From assembly GCF_012295575.1 (NCBI RefSeq), contig NZ_CP051180.1:1364001-1428000 (forward strand): a DNA stretch of 64,000 nucleotides, in the 5' to 3' direction. Positions within the stretch are counted from its first letter, which is position 1, and the number at the start of each line of letters is the position of its first letter. The notes below the pieces were generated by a model. It was not told the DNA's origin. It made no database searches and saw only the letters and a list, made by a program, of their open reading frames with translations. A program made the position numbers and the translations under genes. The stretch comes from Ferrimonas lipolytica. Lineage in GTDB: Bacteria; Pseudomonadota; Gammaproteobacteria; Enterobacterales; Shewanellaceae. Positions 47,506 to 53,988 of the stretch are shown piece by piece.

Positions 47506-47988
47506 ATGAGCAATAACATTTACCAGTTTGAAGCAGAGCTCAACAATGGTGAGCTAACGTCGCTGGAAAAATGGCGTGGTAACGTCATGTTGGTGGTTAA
47601 TACCGCCAGTGCTTGTGGTTTTACACCGCAATACCAAGGTTTAGAGAAACTTCAGCAACAATTCTCGGAACAGGGATTTACCGTATTGGCGTTTCCTTGT
47701 AATCAATTTGGTAAGCAAGAAAAGGGCAGTGACGAAGAGGTACGCAATTTTTGCGATCTCAATTTTAATATCAGCTTTCCGCTGTTTAAGAAGATCGATG
47801 TCAATGGATCAGACGAGTTGCCATTATATGGTTGGCTGAAGAAACAGAAAGGGGGCTTGCTTGGGGATCGGATTAAGTGGAACTTCACTAAATTCTTAGT
47901 ATCAGCTGATGGTAAAGTGGTTCGTCGTTACGCACCAACAACCAAGCCGGAGCAGATTGCTGGTGACATAACAGCACAGCTTAGTTAG
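47506..47988 (+). CDS. Glutathione/thioredoxin peroxidase (BtuE type)
   Basis: 160 residues from the ATG at 47506, which follows CGGAG by 7 bases; the frame is open from 47470. It reduces hydroperoxides using a cysteine in place of selenocysteine. The catalytic set C37 (NTASACGFT), Q71 ([10 protein letters not shown]), W125 and N126 (KWNFTKF) is intact. The additional cysteines C65 and C83 leave room for an atypical two-cysteine cycle. Its stop overlaps the fabA stop by three bases on the other strand. Confidence 0.93.
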
Positions 47989-48524
47989 AAAGCTGAAGTG
48001 TCCTGAAAGACACCAACTTTTAGATCGGTCGCGGCATAAATTTCGCGGCCGTCAACAGACATGGTCGCATCGGCCATTCCCATCACCAACTTACGATTGA
48101 TTAATCGTTTGAAATTTAAATGGTATGTTACTTTTTTAGCCGTTGGTAATACCTGCCCGGTAAATTTAACTTCACCGACACCCAAAGCACGTCCTTTACC
48201 TTTGGCTCCTTGCCACGCCAAGAAGAAACCAACCAATTGCCACATCGCATCTAGGCCCAAACAACCCGGCATTACCGGATCAGTTTCAAAGTGACAATCA
48301 AAAAACCAAAGGTCCGGATTAATATCAAACTCAGCAATCAATTCGCCCTTACCGTACTTACCGCCTTTGGTGCTGACGTGGACAATGCGATCGATCATCA
48401 ACATATTATCTTTTGGTAGGCGAGGTGAATCTTGAGTGAAAAGATTGCCATGGCCACTTTTTACTAAGTCTTCCTTGCTAAACTGCGCAGTATCTTGCTG
48501 CACTACTTCTTCGGCTATGCCCAT
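47985..48524 (-). CDS. fabA: 3-hydroxydecanoyl-ACP dehydratase/isomerase
   Basis: Makes trans-2- and cis-3-decenoyl-ACP, the entry to unsaturated fatty acid synthesis. 179 residues, slightly longer than E. coli (172). The catalytic H78 lies in [14 protein letters not shown] and D92 in [13 protein letters not shown]. The extra residues are at the N-terminus ([15 protein letters not shown]); an internal start is not available before KEDLVKSG. Convergent with gpx, with overlapping stops; lonH lies upstream on the same strand. Confidence 0.96.
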
Positions 48525-48591: not shown

Positions 48592-50340
48592 TCAGCTGCG
48601 ACTAAAAATTTTAGCTGCTAACCGAGTTAATAAACTAGGCGGAGCATCACTGCCTCCAGCCATAAGGTCCAATCGGTTTTGGACTTTACCATAAAGAGTT
48701 TTACCATCGAAACGGTTGTCATCATTGGCTTCGCCAACCTCCTCGCCGGTTAGTAACGCTAACGCATCTTCAACGTTATCTGCTTGATAAAGATGGAATT
48801 GACCATCTTCAATAGCGGCAATCACATCCGTATGAAGGTTTAACTGGCACAGGTTAGCTGTAGGGACAATAACACCCTGTTCACCGGTTAAGCCGCGATA
48901 ACGGCATAGGTGGAAGAAGCCTTCAATCTTTTCATTGATGCCCCCAATAGCTTGTACATTGCCAAACTGATCGACTGCACCGGTAAGTGCTAGTGATTGT
49001 TTTACAGGCACATCGGCGATGGTTGAGATTAAGCAGCAGTATTCGGCCAGCGATGCACTGTCACCGTCGATGGTTTGATAAGACTGTTCAAAAACGATAT
49101 TGGCACTTAGGTGTAATGGTTCATCTTGCCCAAAGATCCGGTACAGGCAGGCGGATAGGATCATCATCCCTTTAGCATGAATGTTGCCACCGAGCTCAGA
49201 TTTGCGTTCAATATCCGCAACCTCACCATCACCATAATGAACCGAAACTGTGATTCGAGCAGGTTCACCGTAGCTATGACCGAGGTACTCAACCACCGTA
49301 AGGCCGTTGATTTGCCCGATACGCTCGCCTGAGGTATCAACCCGAACCGTGGCCTCTTCGATATTTCGTTGCGAATAGATCTGAATGCTGTTGTGACGAT
49401 GACGCATGGACGACAGCGCGGTTTCGATTGCGGCGGCTGTTACAGACTCATCTCCGGATGTCTGTGCTAGTAATTGACCTAATTGGTGCCACGCTAGCGA
49501 TAATCGTTTTTGGTGTTCGCAGATCCGACTCGCGTGGACGGTTAAGGCTTTTAAACCGCAATCGCTAAGTGATTTGCCACTGTACTGACGACAAATCGCG
49601 TTTGCCGCTGCCGCCCATAGATCTGGGTCCTGTTCGTCATCGACAAACCACTCCGGTTGGATCTCTGCCAGCAAACTGATGTGATCAGCGAACTCTGGAT
49701 CGTAGCCATGCAGTGCGTCGTAGGTAATGGCATCACCAACAACAACAACCTTACAGGTGACTGGCACCTTTATTGAACTGCCACTGAAGGCTAAATAACC
49801 GCGCTTTAACGCCTCTTTGACTATACCCCAGCGACTTGGCTTGTCAGCTAAACCTTCCGCCGGTAAAACCAGCACCTCGCAACTGGCCAATAAGCCAGGA
49901 AAGTAGTGGCCCTGTTTATCAATGGTGCCGATTAAGGTTTTTTTTGATACTGGCTGATCAATAAACTTTACTCGTTGAAGCGGCTGTAATTCGACAATCT
50001 TATTGTTGTCTTTGGCGTTAGCCATCTCAGTTGCCGAATACTTTGCTAACTGCTGACCATCATCGCCTTCGATTGCTACTAGCGAACCTGCACATTCTAC
50101 CAAGGGGAATCGAGCGTCTAACTCGGCGACCAGTTTCTCCGCATCAAAACCAACAAAGTTTGAAAGGTAAAGATGTTGGCCTTTGCACCGTTGGAATAGT
50201 TGCCAAGCCGAAATACAACGCTGTTGACCAAGTAACCAAGGAGAGCTTTGACTGTCAGTTTGAGGTAAACGGATGGAGAAGTTCGGTTGAAGAAGTTCAG
50301 GCGTAAGGCGCAAAGGATGCAATGGATGATGCTCCAACAT
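48592..50340 (-). CDS. lonH: Lon-like protease LonH/YcbZ
   Basis: 582 residues (E. coli YcbZ 586). The C-terminal Lon protease domain has the Ser-Lys dyad S428 (DGDSAS) and K471 (GGINEKIEGF). No intact Walker A is visible in the N-terminal region, so this resembles the YcbZ group and not ATP-driven Lon. Substrates are unknown. It precedes fabA on the same strand, as in E. coli, where matP is the next gene out; here two recombinase genes intervene. Confidence 0.92.
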   Translation of the reverse strand: MLEHHPLHPLRLTPELLQPNFSIRLPQTDSQSSPWLLGQQRCISAWQLFQRCKGQHLYLSNFVGFDAEKLVAELDARFPLVECAGSLVAIEGDDGQQLAKYSATEMANAKDNNKIVELQPLQRVKFIDQPVSKKTLIGTIDKQGHYFPGLLASCEVLVLPAEGLADKPSRWGIVKEALKRGYLAFSGSSIKVPVTCKVVVVGDAITYDALHGYDPEFADHISLLAEIQPEWFVDDEQDPDLWAAAANAICRQYSGKSLSDCGLKALTVHASRICEHQKRLSLAWHQLGQLLAQTSGDESVTAAAIETALSSMRHRHNSIQIYSQRNIEEATVRVDTSGERIGQINGLTVVEYLGHSYGEPARITVSVHYGDGEVADIERKSELGGNIHAKGMMILSACLYRIFGQDEPLHLSANIVFEQSYQTIDGDSASLAEYCCLISTIADVPVKQSLALTGAVDQFGNVQAIGGINEKIEGFFHLCRYRGLTGEQGVIVPTANLCQLNLHTDVIAAIEDGQFHLYQADNVEDALALLTGEEVGEANDDNRFDGKTLYGKVQNRLDLMAGGSDAPPSLLTRLAAKIFSRS

Positions 50341-50366: not shown

Positions 50367-50421
50367 TAGTGAGTTACGCCACCATTCGTACAACGCATGA
50401 AAAACTCACCAATTTACGCTA

Positions 50422-50441
50422 TACTGTATGAATATACAGTA
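50422..50441 (+). promoter_or_regulatory. LexA (SOS) box before recombinase A
   Basis: TACTGTATGAATATACAGTA differs from the E. coli consensus palindrome (CTG-N10-CAG with AT-rich centre) only in the centre and ends 12 bp before the recombinase ATG at 50454. A TATACT at 50420-50425 overlaps it and could be the -10. Repression by LexA and induction by DNA damage is therefore expected. Confidence 0.88.
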
Positions 50442-50453
50442 GCGGTGTTTTTC

Positions 50454-51734
50454 ATGACTTCCCGATTAGAACCATCCCCATTATTCGATACAATCAAACA
50501 TTTCGAACAAACAAACAGCGATATTAATCAGCGCATTACGGCAATCACCTTAGAAGGGGTCGATGATGCAGGCTTATTGTACGAACTGGCGATTGATTGG
50601 TTATTAGAGCAAAAACACAGTGAGAATAATTTTAAAACCCACCGCAGTGAACTAACCACTTTTTTAATCTGGTGCTGGCATGTCGAACAGCTAAAAGTAG
50701 AACAAGTAGACCGGCGTCTACTCACTCGTTATCTCGATTTTTGCCAATCACCACCGCCAGAATGGATTGCCTATCGAAATGTAGCGCAGTTCAAAGGCAA
50801 AGAGGAGCGGTTACCTAATCGAGATTGGCGGCCATTTCTCGGCAAAACTGATAACGGGATTCCACAACCATATAGGCTATCGGCCTCAGCAATAAAGACT
50901 AAGTTAGCGTTGTTATCAGCGTTTTTTAATTATCTTATCGAGATGGATTACAGTGAGCGCAATCCAGCAGCCAGCTTATTACGTAGCGGACGCTTTAAAG
51001 GCAACGCTCGACATAGTGGTGTGCCTGAAGACGACGAACAGATGAAGTCGTTTACCGATCTACAGTGGTCCTACGTGATGCAGTATGCGCAGCAAAGTGC
51101 TGCACAAAATATTGCCGATTTTGCCCGCAGCCGTTTTTTGGTTACGCTGCTATACAGTTGCTATCTTCGGATATCTGAAGTCGCTGCTCGGCCTGGATTC
51201 AGTCCGGTAATGGGCCAGTTTCGTCGTGATAGTAAGACCGGTGTATGGGGATTTTTTGTACCGTTAAGTAAAGGGGGAAAAAGCCGAACGGTTGCATTAT
51301 CGGATGAGATGCTTGACGCACTAAAGCAGTATCGAACTGAGCTAGGCTTACCCGAGTTACCTGCTCCACGCGACTCTACACCGCTATTTGTCCGCCACAA
51401 GGCCGCAGGACGCGGGCGAGAGCAGGGCGTTCGTCATGCGAATTTGGGAGTTCGGCAGTTGCGCGATTTGGTCGATGCGGTGATCAGTGGTGGCGCAGAT
51501 CTAGCGATGACTGATGGTTTTGATCAAGATGCACGTGAGATGCGCCAGTTGTCCGCGCACAGTCTACGCCATACTGGGATCTCTCACGACATTAACCTGC
51601 AACGGCGACCGCTGTCTCACGTTCAAGCCGATGCTGGTCATGACAGTATCGATACCACCAGTAAATACCTGCACACGTCTCGAGTTGAACGCCACCAAAC
51701 GGCCAAGTCGAAGCCGCTCGATCACCTCAATTAG
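50454..51734 (+). CDS. Tyrosine recombinase A (SOS-box linked)
   Basis: 426 residues from the ATG at 50454. The frame is open from 50397, but that start would place the LexA box inside the gene. An N-terminal core-binding domain covers about 35-170. The catalytic residues are R239 (YLRISEVA), H369 and R372 (SAHSLRHTG), H396 (DAGHDS) and the nucleophile Y405 (SKYLH), so the enzyme looks active. It is longer than XerC/D (about 300). It converges on recombinase B with overlapping stops. No phage or conjugation genes are near, so its element or substrate is unknown. Confidence 0.92.
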   Translation: MTSRLEPSPLFDTIKHFEQTNSDINQRITAITLEGVDDAGLLYELAIDWLLEQKHSENNFKTHRSELTTFLIWCWHVEQLKVEQVDRRLLTRYLDFCQSPPPEWIAYRNVAQFKGKEERLPNRDWRPFLGKTDNGIPQPYRLSASAIKTKLALLSAFFNYLIEMDYSERNPAASLLRSGRFKGNARHSGVPEDDEQMKSFTDLQWSYVMQYAQQSAAQNIADFARSRFLVTLLYSCYLRISEVAARPGFSPVMGQFRRDSKTGVWGFFVPLSKGGKSRTVALSDEMLDALKQYRTELGLPELPAPRDSTPLFVRHKAAGRGREQGVRHANLGVRQLRDLVDAVISGGADLAMTDGFDQDAREMRQLSAHSLRHTGISHDINLQRRPLSHVQADAGHDSIDTTSKYLHTSRVERHQTAKSKPLDHLN

Positions 51735-52780
51735 TACAATCCGCTGCCGGCATGATTGGCAAACATACCGCAATCATCAAGATAAAGCATAAGGGTCTTC
51801 GGATCCTTATGACCGCTCACTTTCATCACCTCACTAATAGGCGCACCTTTAGCTAGCGCGGAATCGATAAAGCCTCGACGCAACGAGTGCCCACTGATAT
51901 GGGCGAAAGGAGGTGCAACGACATTACTGCGTTTTTTGATGATGCGCGCAATTGAACTTGGATGCAGTGCCAGTTTGGCTGGAGCACCGTTACGGTTAGC
52001 ACGAACCAGCAAAGCTCCATGTTGCCGCCCGATAACAGATAAGTACCGTTGTAATAGAAGAATAGGGCAGCTATTTGGGTTTTGGCCGGCAACGATATGG
52101 ATCTGGCTATATTCGTTGCGCCGTTTTCGTTGTTCAAAACCTAAGATAGCGCCGTTAGGAAATAAGCGAACGTGTTCTATTTGCAGTGCTGCTAAATCAC
52201 TTACGCGCATTGCGCCGGCAAATCCGAGTGTGACAATTAACTGATCCCTCAGTCCTACGAACCCATCAGTTTCAATATCAGCCACAATCGGCGCTAACCA
52301 TTCTGTTCGTATCGCGGCTGCACGTTTAGGTTTGCTAGGCAATAGACGACTAATGCCTGCCAGTTGACCATGTACCAGCGCGTCCGTGGCTGGATTTTTA
52401 CCAGTTGTTTGCTGGTCGAAAAACCATTTAATGCTTGAGTGACGGCGGCGAATGCTGCGTACCGCGAGCGCATTACCACGATAGAGCGTCGATTCACCAG
52501 TGCTAACGTCATAGCGCAATCGATTCAAACTGTTATCAGTTGCCATATGGCTTAACCATAAACATAAATCGGCGCTGGTCGGAATATTAGGGTTTACCTG
52601 ATGAGCCTGACACCAAATTTTAAATTGACGTAAGTCCGATGCGCGAGCTTGCCAAGTTTTCTCTGCAACTCGTGAACGATGGATCTGGGCTAAACGGTTA
52701 AGATCGTCTTCAGTGATCGTTGCAGTAAAACTTGGCAGGTCACGTTGATTTGAGAGGGCTTCTAATTCTGCAGGAAACAC
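51731..52780 (-). CDS. Tyrosine recombinase B
   Basis: 349 residues. The core-binding domain spans about 25-125 (WQARASDLRQFKIWCQAH, then RRRHSSIKWFF). The catalytic residues R192 (AGAMRVSDL), H298 and R301 (SGHSLRRGF), H324 (VSGHKD) and Y333 (LYLDD) are all present. It is clearly different from recombinase A, not a recent duplicate. Its stop overlaps that of A by three bases. A 12-8-12 inverted repeat lies 54 bp upstream of its start, between it and matP. No clear ribosome site was found. Confidence 0.92.
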   Translation of the reverse strand: MFPAELEALSNQRDLPSFTATITEDDLNRLAQIHRSRVAEKTWQARASDLRQFKIWCQAHQVNPNIPTSADLCLWLSHMATDNSLNRLRYDVSTGESTLYRGNALAVRSIRRRHSSIKWFFDQQTTGKNPATDALVHGQLAGISRLLPSKPKRAAAIRTEWLAPIVADIETDGFVGLRDQLIVTLGFAGAMRVSDLAALQIEHVRLFPNGAILGFEQRKRRNEYSQIHIVAGQNPNSCPILLLQRYLSVIGRQHGALLVRANRNGAPAKLALHPSSIARIIKKRSNVVAPPFAHISGHSLRRGFIDSALAKGAPISEVMKVSGHKDPKTLMLYLDDCGMFANHAGSGLY

Positions 52781-52833: not shown

Positions 52834-52865
52834 TTAGATCAACTAACGGCAATTAGTTGATCTAA
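52834..52865. other. 12-8-12 perfect inverted repeat upstream of recombinase B
   Basis: TTAGATCAACTA (52834-52845), spacer ACGGCAAT, TAGTTGATCTAA (52854-52865). Arms of 12 bp around an asymmetric 8-bp centre have the geometry of tyrosine-recombinase core sites such as loxP-type sites, but it could equally be an operator or a leader hairpin. A further partial arm, TTAGATC, occurs at about 52884. Confidence 0.75.
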
Positions 52866-52902: not shown

Positions 52903-53298
52903 TTACTCGAGCGGGGTGTTTATCTCCCGAGCCATCCAGACTATTGCCTCAGAATAGCTATTCAAGCCGTAGTTACTGATTATCTGCTCAAGCGATTGAA
53001 CTGCAATGAGGTCTAAATCAATTGCTTTAGTTTGTTTGCGCTGCCTATGGAGGTAACTGTTGTAGCGGCGACGCAACATTGGTAATCGTGATTGGCCGAA
53101 CGTAAGCGTAATAAAGGCTTCAATATCATTATGTAGACTCGAGTCATTTTGCCGTTGTCGTTGTTGCCACTGTGGTAACTGCTGTTGTTTAACACGAAGG
53201 CGCCATTGGCCAACGTCAGTAAGGCTGGCATAACGACTAAGGAAAGGTTCAGAACGAGTAAGCAAAAATTCGACAAACTGAGTATCTAATGGGCGCAT
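52903..53298 (-). CDS. matP: Probable MatP, Ter macrodomain organiser, short form
   Basis: 131 residues. The segment RRRYNSYLHRQ, then KQTKAIDLDLIAVQSLEQI and YSEAIVWMARE resembles E. coli MatP around RRKRHFNAEHQ, RKKSIDLEFIVWQRLAGL and SETIVQLIED, the ribbon-helix-helix that binds matS sites. In E. coli matP also lies on the lonH/fabA side, supporting the call. About twenty C-terminal residues forming the coiled coil in E. coli MatP are missing: the protein ends five residues after the helix (NTPLE). The N-terminal half is less similar. No Shine-Dalgarno is seen. Confidence 0.65.
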   Translation of the reverse strand: MRPLDTQFVEFLLTRSEPFLSRYASLTDVGQWRLRVKQQQLPQWQQRQRQNDSSLHNDIEAFITLTFGQSRLPMLRRRYNSYLHRQRKQTKAIDLDLIAVQSLEQIISNYGLNSYSEAIVWMAREINTPLE

Positions 53299-53301
53299 TG
53301 G

Positions 53302-53315
53302 TCACATGTGATAGC
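53302..53315. promoter_or_regulatory. Palindromic operator-like site at matP start
   Basis: TCACATGTGATAGC, with a 10-bp perfect palindrome TCACATGTGA, begins 3 bp upstream of the matP start codon. The same 14 bases recur inside the 28-bp palindrome at 53365-53392, so two copies lie within 90 bp of the gene start. Confidence 0.7.
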
Positions 53316-53364: not shown

Positions 53365-53392
53365 ACTCAGCTATCACATGTGATAGCTGAGT
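53365..53392. promoter_or_regulatory. 28-bp perfect palindrome upstream of matP
   Basis: The left half ACTCAGCTATCACA is followed directly by its exact reverse complement TGTGATAGCTGAGT. There is no T-run, so it is not a terminator. Sharing the TCACATGTGATAGC core with 53302-53315 suggests a DNA-binding protein site. The half-site GTGAY also occurs in matS (GTGAC-N3-GTCAC), but with the arms in the opposite order, so it is not a matS. Confidence 0.8.
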
Positions 53393-53523
53393 GCGGTTTC
53401 ACAATTAATAGTGACTGGCATTATCGGCGCCGATCGTAACTCAGCAGCAGACAAACTTTGTTGATCATGCCAAAAGCGCCTATGGTTGACATAGCACCAT
53501 GCGAGTAAGTGTTAGGAGGTTGT

Positions 53524-53712
53524 ATGGGACTCGAGTTTAATTTGGTTGCCGCGCGTGCTGCGAGTTTAGGTTTTGGTGTAAAGCAATCATCCGAAGATAG
53601 ATACGATTTGTATGCGCTTAATAGCGCTAGTCATTGGATAGACGATCAGAAGCAACTAGACCAACATGAGTTGTTGACGATGTTGGAACAACTAGAGCAT
53701 ATTCAGATGTGA
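53524..53712 (+). CDS. Hypothetical protein, 62 aa
   Basis: A strong ribosome site AGGAGGT (53514-53520) precedes the ATG at 53524, the main reason to accept it. The product MGLEFNLVAARAASLGFGVK then becomes polar and acidic (SSEDRYDLYALNSASHWIDD) and ends in a Leu/Glu/Gln-rich helix. No family is recognised, and no signal or membrane segment is present. A hairpin follows the stop at 53751-53778. Confidence 0.6.
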   Translation: MGLEFNLVAARAASLGFGVKQSSEDRYDLYALNSASHWIDDQKQLDQHELLTMLEQLEHIQM

Positions 53713-53750
53713 ACAGATTTAGCTAATGCACATTGATGGTTTTGTCCGTT

Positions 53751-53778
53751 AATGCCGATAATCCTATTTATCGGCATT
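53751..53778 (+). terminator. Hairpin after the 62-aa gene
   Basis: AATGCCGATAA and TTATCGGCATT pair over 11 bp with a 6-base loop, followed by an A/T-rich tail (ATTATTAT) and not a pure T-run. Probable terminator, 38 bp after the stop. Confidence 0.6.
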
Positions 53779-53988
53779 ATTATCTGCACCAGGCTTACCT
53801 TCATTTACACCCAATACATAACTGCGCACAATCTATATTATGTTAAATTGACTGTAATGAATGCCTTGCAAGCCGATTCCTCACTACAATTAGCTCGGTT
53901 TTACCATTTAAACACAACACTCTGCTTGATCTCTGGCCATGTGCATAATGCATTTTAATGTTCACTTGGAGTATGCTCTAGTCAATAC

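Follow-up and report, generated by a model that had tools for sequence, protein, structure and literature searches.

The window analyzed here comprises 64,000 nucleotides of the forward strand of NZ_CP051180.1 (positions 1,364,001 to 1,428,000) and is part of the complete 4.13-Mb chromosome of Ferrimonas lipolytica. It contains two genes, rec1 and rec2, coding for unlike tyrosine recombinases, together with two near-perfect palindromes, site A and site B, each tracking one of the recombinases across genomes, and a dif site of the XerCD type. An initial annotation of this DNA had recognized the recombinase genes and placed them between lonH and matP; that setting proves incomplete, as dif, a LexA box, and both palindromic sites had been overlooked. 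The central features, in coordinates of the window, are:

50454..51734, + strand: rec1, coding for a 426-aa XerC/D-like tyrosine recombinase (ATG at 50454)
51731..52780, - strand: rec2, coding for a 349-aa Xer-like tyrosine recombinase unlike Rec1 (GTG start)
50422..50441: LexA (SOS) box TACTGTATGAATATACAGTA, upstream of rec1
52834..52865: site B, candidate Rec2 site, TTAGATCAACTAA-CGGCAA-TTAGTTGATCTAA, a 32-bp palindrome between rec2 and a matP-like gene
53752..53777: site A, candidate Rec1 site, ATGCCGATAA-TCCTAT-TTATCGGCAT, with perfect arms extending to 53750-53779
53821..53848, + strand: canonical XerCD dif, ACTGCGCACAATCTATATTATGTTAAAT, with 2 mismatches to the Aeromonas dif

The two genes are convergent and overlap by 4 bp; a further ATG at 50397 also opens the rec1 frame, and the LexA box falls between the two ATGs. 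The earlier description of two unlike and apparently active recombinases is borne out: both open reading frames (ORFs) are intact where it had located them, both products exceed the Pfam Phage_integrase cut-off of 27.1 bits (Rec1 43.6, Rec2 43.3), and both retain the R-K-H-R-H-Y catalytic consensus of tyrosine recombinases, as R239, K276, H369, R372, H396, and Y405 in Rec1 (invariant in 18 of 18 aligned proteins) and as R192, K219, H298, R301, H324, and Y333 in Rec2 (invariant in all eight aligned proteins). The models tried assign neither of them to a named integrase family: on the XerC and XerD models (TIGR02224 and TIGR02225) Rec1 obtains 53 and 48 bits and Rec2 41 and 35, far below the cut-offs of 335 and 330, and on the integron integrase model (TIGR02249) they obtain 20.1 and 19.5 bits, far below the cut-off of 265. 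The ratio of nonsynonymous to synonymous substitution rates (dN/dS) is 0.03-0.07 in the seven of nine pairs that allowed its computation (five of six for rec1, including one with Marinobacterium, and two of three for rec2), with dS saturated in the remaining two pairs and above 1.7 in three of the seven; judged by these ratios, both genes are under strong purifying selection. The AlphaFold models of the proteins are of low quality (predicted local distance difference test score, pLDDT, 60 for Rec1 and 50 for Rec2).

Accounts of chromosomal dif usually present a single site on which one XerCD machine acts, along with the phages that exploit it. Here dif lies 43 bp from site A. All ten 20-kb bins to its left show positive GC skew and all ten to its right negative skew, and the FtsK-orienting polar sequences (KOPS, counted with what we take to be the motif, GGGNAGGG) over 400 kb number 15 on the plus and 2 on the minus strand to the left of dif, and 0 and 16, respectively, to its right; the maximum of the cumulative skew lies 14 kb to the right of dif. 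This switch of both GC skew and KOPS at dif identifies the locus as the replication terminus. The dif site was recognized by way of the Aeromonas locus, and a whole-genome scan allowing up to three mismatches to what we take to be the E. coli-type consensus yielded no match. Elsewhere the genome encodes XerC (361 bits against a cut-off of 335) and a second Xer protein scoring 297 bits on the XerC model, presumably XerD.

Rec1 is encoded within 20 kb around dif and lonH in all 14 Ferrimonas genomes, directly beside lonH in 13 of them and about 6 kb away in G007 (Rec1 46% identical). Its identity to the window's protein falls in step with that of LonH in the Rec2-bearing genomes (rec1/lonH 80/80, 73/74, and 63-67/63-64%); in the six Rec2-less genomes lonH, at 46-48%, lies below rec1, at 63-67%. 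A palindrome of the pattern ATGCCGATAA-N6-TTATCGGCAT near dif accompanies Rec1 in 13 of the 14 Ferrimonas genomes (all save G007) and also in Aeromonas caviae, two Marinobacterium genomes, and one metagenome-assembled genome (MAG) of the Oceanospirillaceae. With at most one mismatch, site A is present as one copy in 11 of the 14, as two in G005 (F. futtsuensis; one in the host and one in a phage), and as none in G004 and G007, the sole site A of G004 having two mismatches; the reversed control pattern, at up to three mismatches, matched once, in G011. One site A each is likewise found in the A. caviae record (4.94 Mb, filed as a plasmid and evidently the chromosome) and in two plasmids; these, pSbal01 (Rec1 54% identical) and MRG65-300 (38%), have a single perfect copy each, located upstream of the recombinase gene or of the pair of genes to which it belongs. 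A class-wide search (369 genomes drawn, E <= 1e-60) recovered Rec1 relatives of 34-41% identity in 38 other genomes and none closer, which shows that the draw missed the Aeromonas and Marinobacterium members having Rec1.

The placement of site A relative to rec1 and dif follows a few layouts. In five of the six Rec2-less Ferrimonas genomes its first base is also the final base of the rec1 stop codon, and in the sixth (G001) it starts 21 bp past the stop; the distance from there to dif is 41-42 bp in four, G012 has a 673-bp remnant in this interval, and in G005 a hybrid dif and a prophage follow 42 bp after site A. In the genomes with Rec2, site A is found past the rec2 module near dif, with a gap of 20-55 bp in four and 607-666 bp in three, and in some of them it is several kb from rec1. 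In the two Marinobacterium genomes and the MAG, rec1 is flanked by site A, 57-58 bp upstream, and by dif, 70-121 bp downstream. A. caviae has pqi-like genes (identified by eye) followed by site A, rec1, dif, and lonH, with 51 bp separating site A from rec1 and 96 bp separating rec1 from dif. The neighbors of rec1 differ in Marinobacterium, the MAG, and the plasmids, and the module may have spread between lineages. Two further repeats were seen near these genes: in G007 (L054, 3910-3933) TCCCGACTT-TCCTAT-AAGTCGGGG, with the same 6-bp center as the window's site A and also terminator-like, lies between dif and the divergent rec1, and in several Aeromonas-like loci (L109, L091, L112, L075, L067) GTGAGAGATAAC follows rec1 while its inverse GTTATCTCTCAC adjoins site A, the two possibly being accessory binding sites.

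A box of the form CTGT-N8-ACAG begins 28-81 bp upstream of rec1 in all 14 Ferrimonas genomes, and that of the window is the sole perfect match to TACTGTATNNNNATACAGTA in its genome. Four further matches with one or two mismatches lie at recA, at recN, at an integron-type integrase gene, and at one place lacking an evident SOS gene (neighboring genes being named by reading their translations); since recA, recN, and the integrase carry these weaker matches, the class of the box is borne out, and rec1 is probably SOS-controlled in Ferrimonas. As lonH is divergent from rec1 in 13 of the 14 genomes, the box could serve lonH too. A Rec1 relative on a Vibrio campbellii plasmid has a CTGT-N8-ACAG-type box 105 bp upstream. 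The integron-type integrase gene, recognized by eye, is at 2617039-2617984 of the window's genome (L212), with its LexA box just upstream; the box with no obvious SOS gene adjoining is a strong one, at 910494-910513 of the same genome (L211). Another SOS-type neighborhood is seen on the Vibrio plasmid pVPS92-VEB (L204), where the gene for a distantly related Rec2 (31%) adjoins those for an S24 peptidase and a Y-family polymerase.

Site B shows a comparable association with Rec2. Searched with a degenerate pattern at up to three mismatches, it occurs once in each of eight Ferrimonas genomes, which are the same eight that encode Rec2, and is found in none of the other six; the reversed control pattern gave no match. 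Its 28-bp core precedes the start used for rec2 by 33-61 bp, and in the five loci compared its arms and asymmetric center are conserved and its flanks are not; the variants comprise one center reading CGACAA, one right arm ending in G, and four of the eight right arms differing at two inner positions. The module of G007 is rearranged, with its matP-like gene found about 4 kb away, yet site B keeps its orientation and its place upstream of rec2, at 50 bp. Beyond Ferrimonas, a class-wide search (E <= 1e-40) found Rec2 relatives in three genomes of one other genus; in two of these a perfect palindrome, CTTCCGATAA-N6-TTATCGGAAG, precedes the ORF start by 162-174 bp. A. caviae encodes a 32% identical relative about 10 kb from dif (L165, 23555-24670), with a TAA-N6-TTA palindrome, GTATTGATAA-TGAATA-TTATCGATAC (1 mismatch), 61 bp upstream; no TAA-N6-TTA palindrome was found upstream of a Vibrio plasmid relative. 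The single copy of site B in each Rec2-bearing Ferrimonas genome and its lack in the other six, along with the location of rec1 beside lonH in 13 of 14 genomes, speaks against the suggestion in the initial annotation that the pair forms the core of a minimal mobile element.

Site A recurs in phages. Scanning 2.9 million viral contigs for TGCCGATAA-N6-TTATCGGCA returned 65 stretches with a perfect site A, many from contigs of 7-12 kb. A Rec1 homolog (60-64% identical) is encoded in 26 of them, and the rec1 DNA of A. caviae, where alignable, is 75-98% identical, so the hosts are probably Aeromonas or near it. A complete dif is present in 19; its distance to the nearest site A is 717 bp in 11 of them, 716-726 bp in 16, and 474, 797, and 905 bp in the other three. 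The lack of a Rec1 homolog in 39 stretches and of a complete dif in 46 arises partly from the trimming of provirus contigs and partly, in our view, from chance or terminator matches in some long contigs. Two phages were checked for inovirus-type proteins. That of locus L080, in which site A overlaps the start of a Rep_trans family gene, and that of F. futtsuensis (G005, L052) both encode a Zot-family morphogenesis protein, and the latter also a coat-like protein scoring slightly below the Pfam cut-off; such proteins are what one would expect of inoviruses. The F. futtsuensis element lies between the hybrid dif and a good dif and has a site A of its own, 943 bp ahead of the good dif; by its layout it is an ordinary XerCD-type integration with an extra site. 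A viral search for Rec2 relatives found none; eight viral stretches match a loose site B pattern, and as none of them holds rec1 or rec2 relatives we regard these as chance matches.

Comparisons of the DNA between site A and dif bear marks of exchange at A. In G012 (L059) this interval is 673 bp long, compared with 41-42 bp in four of the other Rec2-less genomes, and encodes a protein 37.5% identical over 160 aa (E 1.8e-29) to the product of an F. futtsuensis phage gene that sits between site A and attR; both proteins resemble the DUF3653 family ('Phage protein'), with the L059 protein below the cut-off. Such a remnant would be the expected product of recombination between a host and a phage site A. 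In the Aeromonas-like locus L081, the host stretch between A and attL matches the A-attR end of a phage at 94% identity over 738 bp. Among five Aeromonas-like loci the 300 bp to the left of A are 91-95% identical in all ten pairs, and the 300 bp to the right are 58-63% identical, versus 58-61% for shuffled sequence; differing small ORFs occupy the right side, and ahead of dif the sequences become alike again in four of the five, a return not seen for L091. Both the phage remnants and the sharp flank breaks coinciding with A in these alignments indicate recombination there.

We propose, with moderate confidence and from comparative sequence evidence, that the locus holds two single-recombinase Xer-type modules beside XerCD/dif, in which Rec1 would act on site A and Rec2 on site B, with Rec1 being made upon SOS induction. 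Each recombinase would function, like XerS, XerH, and XerL, as a tetramer of one protein assembled across two copies of its own near-palindromic site, and in Ferrimonas cleavage of LexA would time the Rec1 reaction to DNA damage. With one site A per chromosome, the available partners would be the sister chromosome, as in dimer resolution, or an incoming element with a site A. Inoviruses targeting dif would supply such a partner: a reaction between directly oriented copies of A would remove the phage body, leave the A-attR end of the phage along with an intact dif, and pass the former A-attL segment of the host to the excised circle, a model that fits both the scars and the variable segments between A and dif. 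Rec1 may also resolve replicon dimers. From these patterns we infer that Rec1 catalyzes the flank switching, that the SOS box is functional, and that Rec2 acts on site B.

A number of observations weigh against this proposal. The five loci used for the flank comparison were picked for their alike left flanks, and across all 14 Aeromonas-like loci the mean identity is 0.66 on the left, 0.58 on the right, and 0.57 for the shuffled right side, with the right exceeding the left in 16 of 91 pairs, a weak contrast that arises because several loci differ on both sides. The 6-bp centers of host and phage A often differ, so that a simple two-strand exchange is disfavored, some of the pairs are inverted or unclear, and the flank switch could stem in part from homologous recombination. 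That phages keep site A would also be at odds with a site serving solely in their removal; they may gain from it by being released as circles or by having tandem copies resolved. The pairing of Rec1 with A also has its exceptions: G007 has no site A at up to three mismatches; weaker matches (2-3 mismatches) occur in most Ferrimonas genomes, e.g., at 3685407 in that of the window; among seven plasmid Rec1 regions examined from 1533 matching records, site A is absent from five (four Vibrionaceae, one Shewanella), two of which lack any 10-6-10 palindrome while three have an unlike one; and in 29 loci of distant Rec1 homologs (33-37% identical; 2.6-4.2 kb each) an AA-N6-TT 10-6-10 palindrome is found in two and dif in none. 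The LexA box upstream of rec1 is absent from the two Marinobacterium genomes, the MAG, and A. caviae. For site B, no scar, phage partner, or second copy was seen, so that it is linkage that ties Rec2 to this site.

A bolder interpretation, which we advance tentatively as a doubtful possibility, is that Rec1 and site A constitute an integron-like capture platform at the terminus that exchanges small gene segments with dif-docking phages and is SOS-controlled in Ferrimonas. Such a platform would come close to an intermediate imagined in a proposal for the origin of integrons, in which a Xer recombinase met phage-borne genes and Xer-using phages were the ancestral cassette vehicles (PMC4792948; this and the other papers cited by PMC number are drawn on in excerpt). 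Ferrimonas rec1 resembles the SOS-controlled integron integrases treated in the same excerpts in coding for a tyrosine recombinase with a LexA box beside its own site, and the Aeromonas-like loci are integron-like in their variable small ORFs on the far side of site A, although A. caviae is without the LexA box. Unlike an integron integrase, Rec1 reaches just 20 bits against the cut-off of 265 on the corresponding model, and one segment only, bounded by dif, is present.

We consider it unlikely that the two modules are simply extra, backup systems for dimer resolution, with Rec1 called upon when the SOS response brings many RecA crossovers while division is blocked, and with phages parasitizing A as they do dif. 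Such a role would agree with the mostly single good site per replicon, the position of the site beside its gene and at the terminus, the plasmid versions, and the SOS box, and known single-recombinase systems with the site near the gene offer a precedent (PMC9765430, in excerpt). However, with XerC, a second Xer gene, and dif present such a service looks redundant, and plain resolution does not predict that the DNA to the right of A should vary by strain, as it does in the five Aeromonas-like loci. It is improbable that Rec1 and Rec2 are domesticated or relic integrases of phages or elements, their sites being old attachment sites and promoter operators with little function beyond autoregulation: the distance of 49-58 bp at which site A precedes rec1 in A. 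caviae, Marinobacterium, the MAG, and a Shewanella plasmid, and that of 33-61 bp at which the site B core precedes rec2, would suit operators, but the low dN/dS of 0.03-0.07, the invariant catalytic residues, the retention of site A at the 3' end of rec1 in the Rec2-less Ferrimonas genomes, and the flank exchange at A argue otherwise.

The heteromeric pair acting on one site in the manner of XerC/XerD, as envisaged in the initial annotation, now seems very improbable. The genes are adjacent and convergent in seven of the eight Ferrimonas genomes having both, in four of eight copies of site B the two arms disagree at two inner positions, and relatives of Rec1 and Rec2 share records in A. caviae and in Vibrio plasmids (among the 20 best plasmid records for each, 10 are common to both, nine of these being Vibrio plasmids, several near-identical). 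Nevertheless, at this locus six of the 14 Ferrimonas genomes encode Rec1 without Rec2, each protein tracks a different palindrome, and in G007 rec2 and site B stay together with rec1 about 4.6 kb away. That the palindromes act as operators or terminators and have nothing to do with recombination is scarcely credible. All of them are inverted repeats close to genes, and G007 has a terminator-like repeat at the place; against this, the asymmetric center of site B is kept (CGGCAA, once CGACAA) and its arm pairing is broken at two positions in four of eight, and site A is carried by phages and by plasmids that have rec1 relatives and coincides with the breakpoints of the flanks.

Our preferred reading of two Xer-type modules beside dif can be set against several described systems. 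The closest is XerL/dif of the Legionellales (PMC9765430), which resembles Rec1/A in having a single tyrosine recombinase, a terminus site with uninterrupted 10-bp dyad arms, a mobile element carrying a mimic of the site, and a plasmid-borne relative beside its site; unlike the arrangement seen here, the excerpted text reports no other Xer system and places gene and site more than 400 kb apart in L. pneumophila, whereas Rec1/A lies beside an XerCD-type dif and its own gene, with a LexA box, and the excerpted text mentions no SOS link for XerL. The likeness is one of described features. XerS/difSL and XerH/difH (PMC2731167, PMC3325230, PMC3025954, all in excerpt) likewise combine one recombinase with a site next to its gene at the terminus, and Rec1 and Rec2 share with such single-recombinase systems a full catalytic set and a short dyad site that is at the terminus, mostly single per replicon, and linked to the gene. 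While XerS and XerH generally replace XerCD, here two modules with near-perfect palindromes sit right beside dif, and XerC, the second Xer gene, and dif are all present. A possible precedent for co-existence is a Lactobacillus genome with XerS beside xerC and xerD (PMC3025954). Of 161 dif sites in one survey, 14.2% are flanked by insertion sequence, transposase, or integrase genes, and the available portion of that survey describes no Rec1/Rec2-type module (PMC2731167). Filamentous phages of the integrative mobile elements exploiting Xer (IMEX) class, e.g., CTXphi, VGJphi, and TLCphi (PMC4246890, in excerpt), also integrate at dif, and the sites share an inner TAA-N6-TTA layout; the phages found here differ from these in having a second, non-dif site that matches the site beside a host recombinase gene next to dif.

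Among the matches listed in the open-licence literature, with subscription papers mostly outside this scope, we found no description of the Rec1/site A arrangement. Up to three site-specific systems are packed into about 3.4 kb at this genus-wide locus, one of them apparently tied to SOS, which suggests an unrecognized layer of traffic control at the chromosome terminus. If Rec1 acts on A, it would provide a host route for removing or remodeling dif-integrated phages, a testable link between DNA damage and recombination at the terminus, and a natural model for the origin of integrons.

The remaining features of the locus are:

47985-48524: gene for a protein with a FabA-like domain, next to lonH
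48592..50340, - strand: gene for a lonH-like Lon-family protease, the context anchor (Lon_C 31.1 bits, LonB-like AAA)
52903..53298, - strand: gene for a 131-aa protein, called matP in the initial annotation, with a weak resemblance to MatP in its C-terminal stretch
53509..53712, + strand: conserved small ORF of 67 aa belonging to the rec2 module, present in the eight rec2 loci and not found in the six other Ferrimonas genomes

The lonH-matP setting first assigned to the recombinases is doubtful. The candidate matP gene is found, among the 14 Ferrimonas genomes, in the eight rec2-bearing ones only, and we reject it as a genuine MatP: the Pfam MatP model PF06303 matches neither the window's protein nor any of the 14 genomes, while detecting E. 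coli among 14 controls, and no matS (presumably GTGACRNYGTCAC) occurs in the 400 kb around dif. With a profile of the family the best PDB match is MatP over the C-terminal stretch, at E = 0.22, and the protein is at best a remote relative. Just upstream of its gene TCACATGTGATAGC occurs twice (53302-53315 and 53370-53383), once inside a longer perfect palindrome (53365-53392); these are the sole copies of TCACATGTGA in the 400 kb around dif and are perhaps an operator of the matP-like gene.

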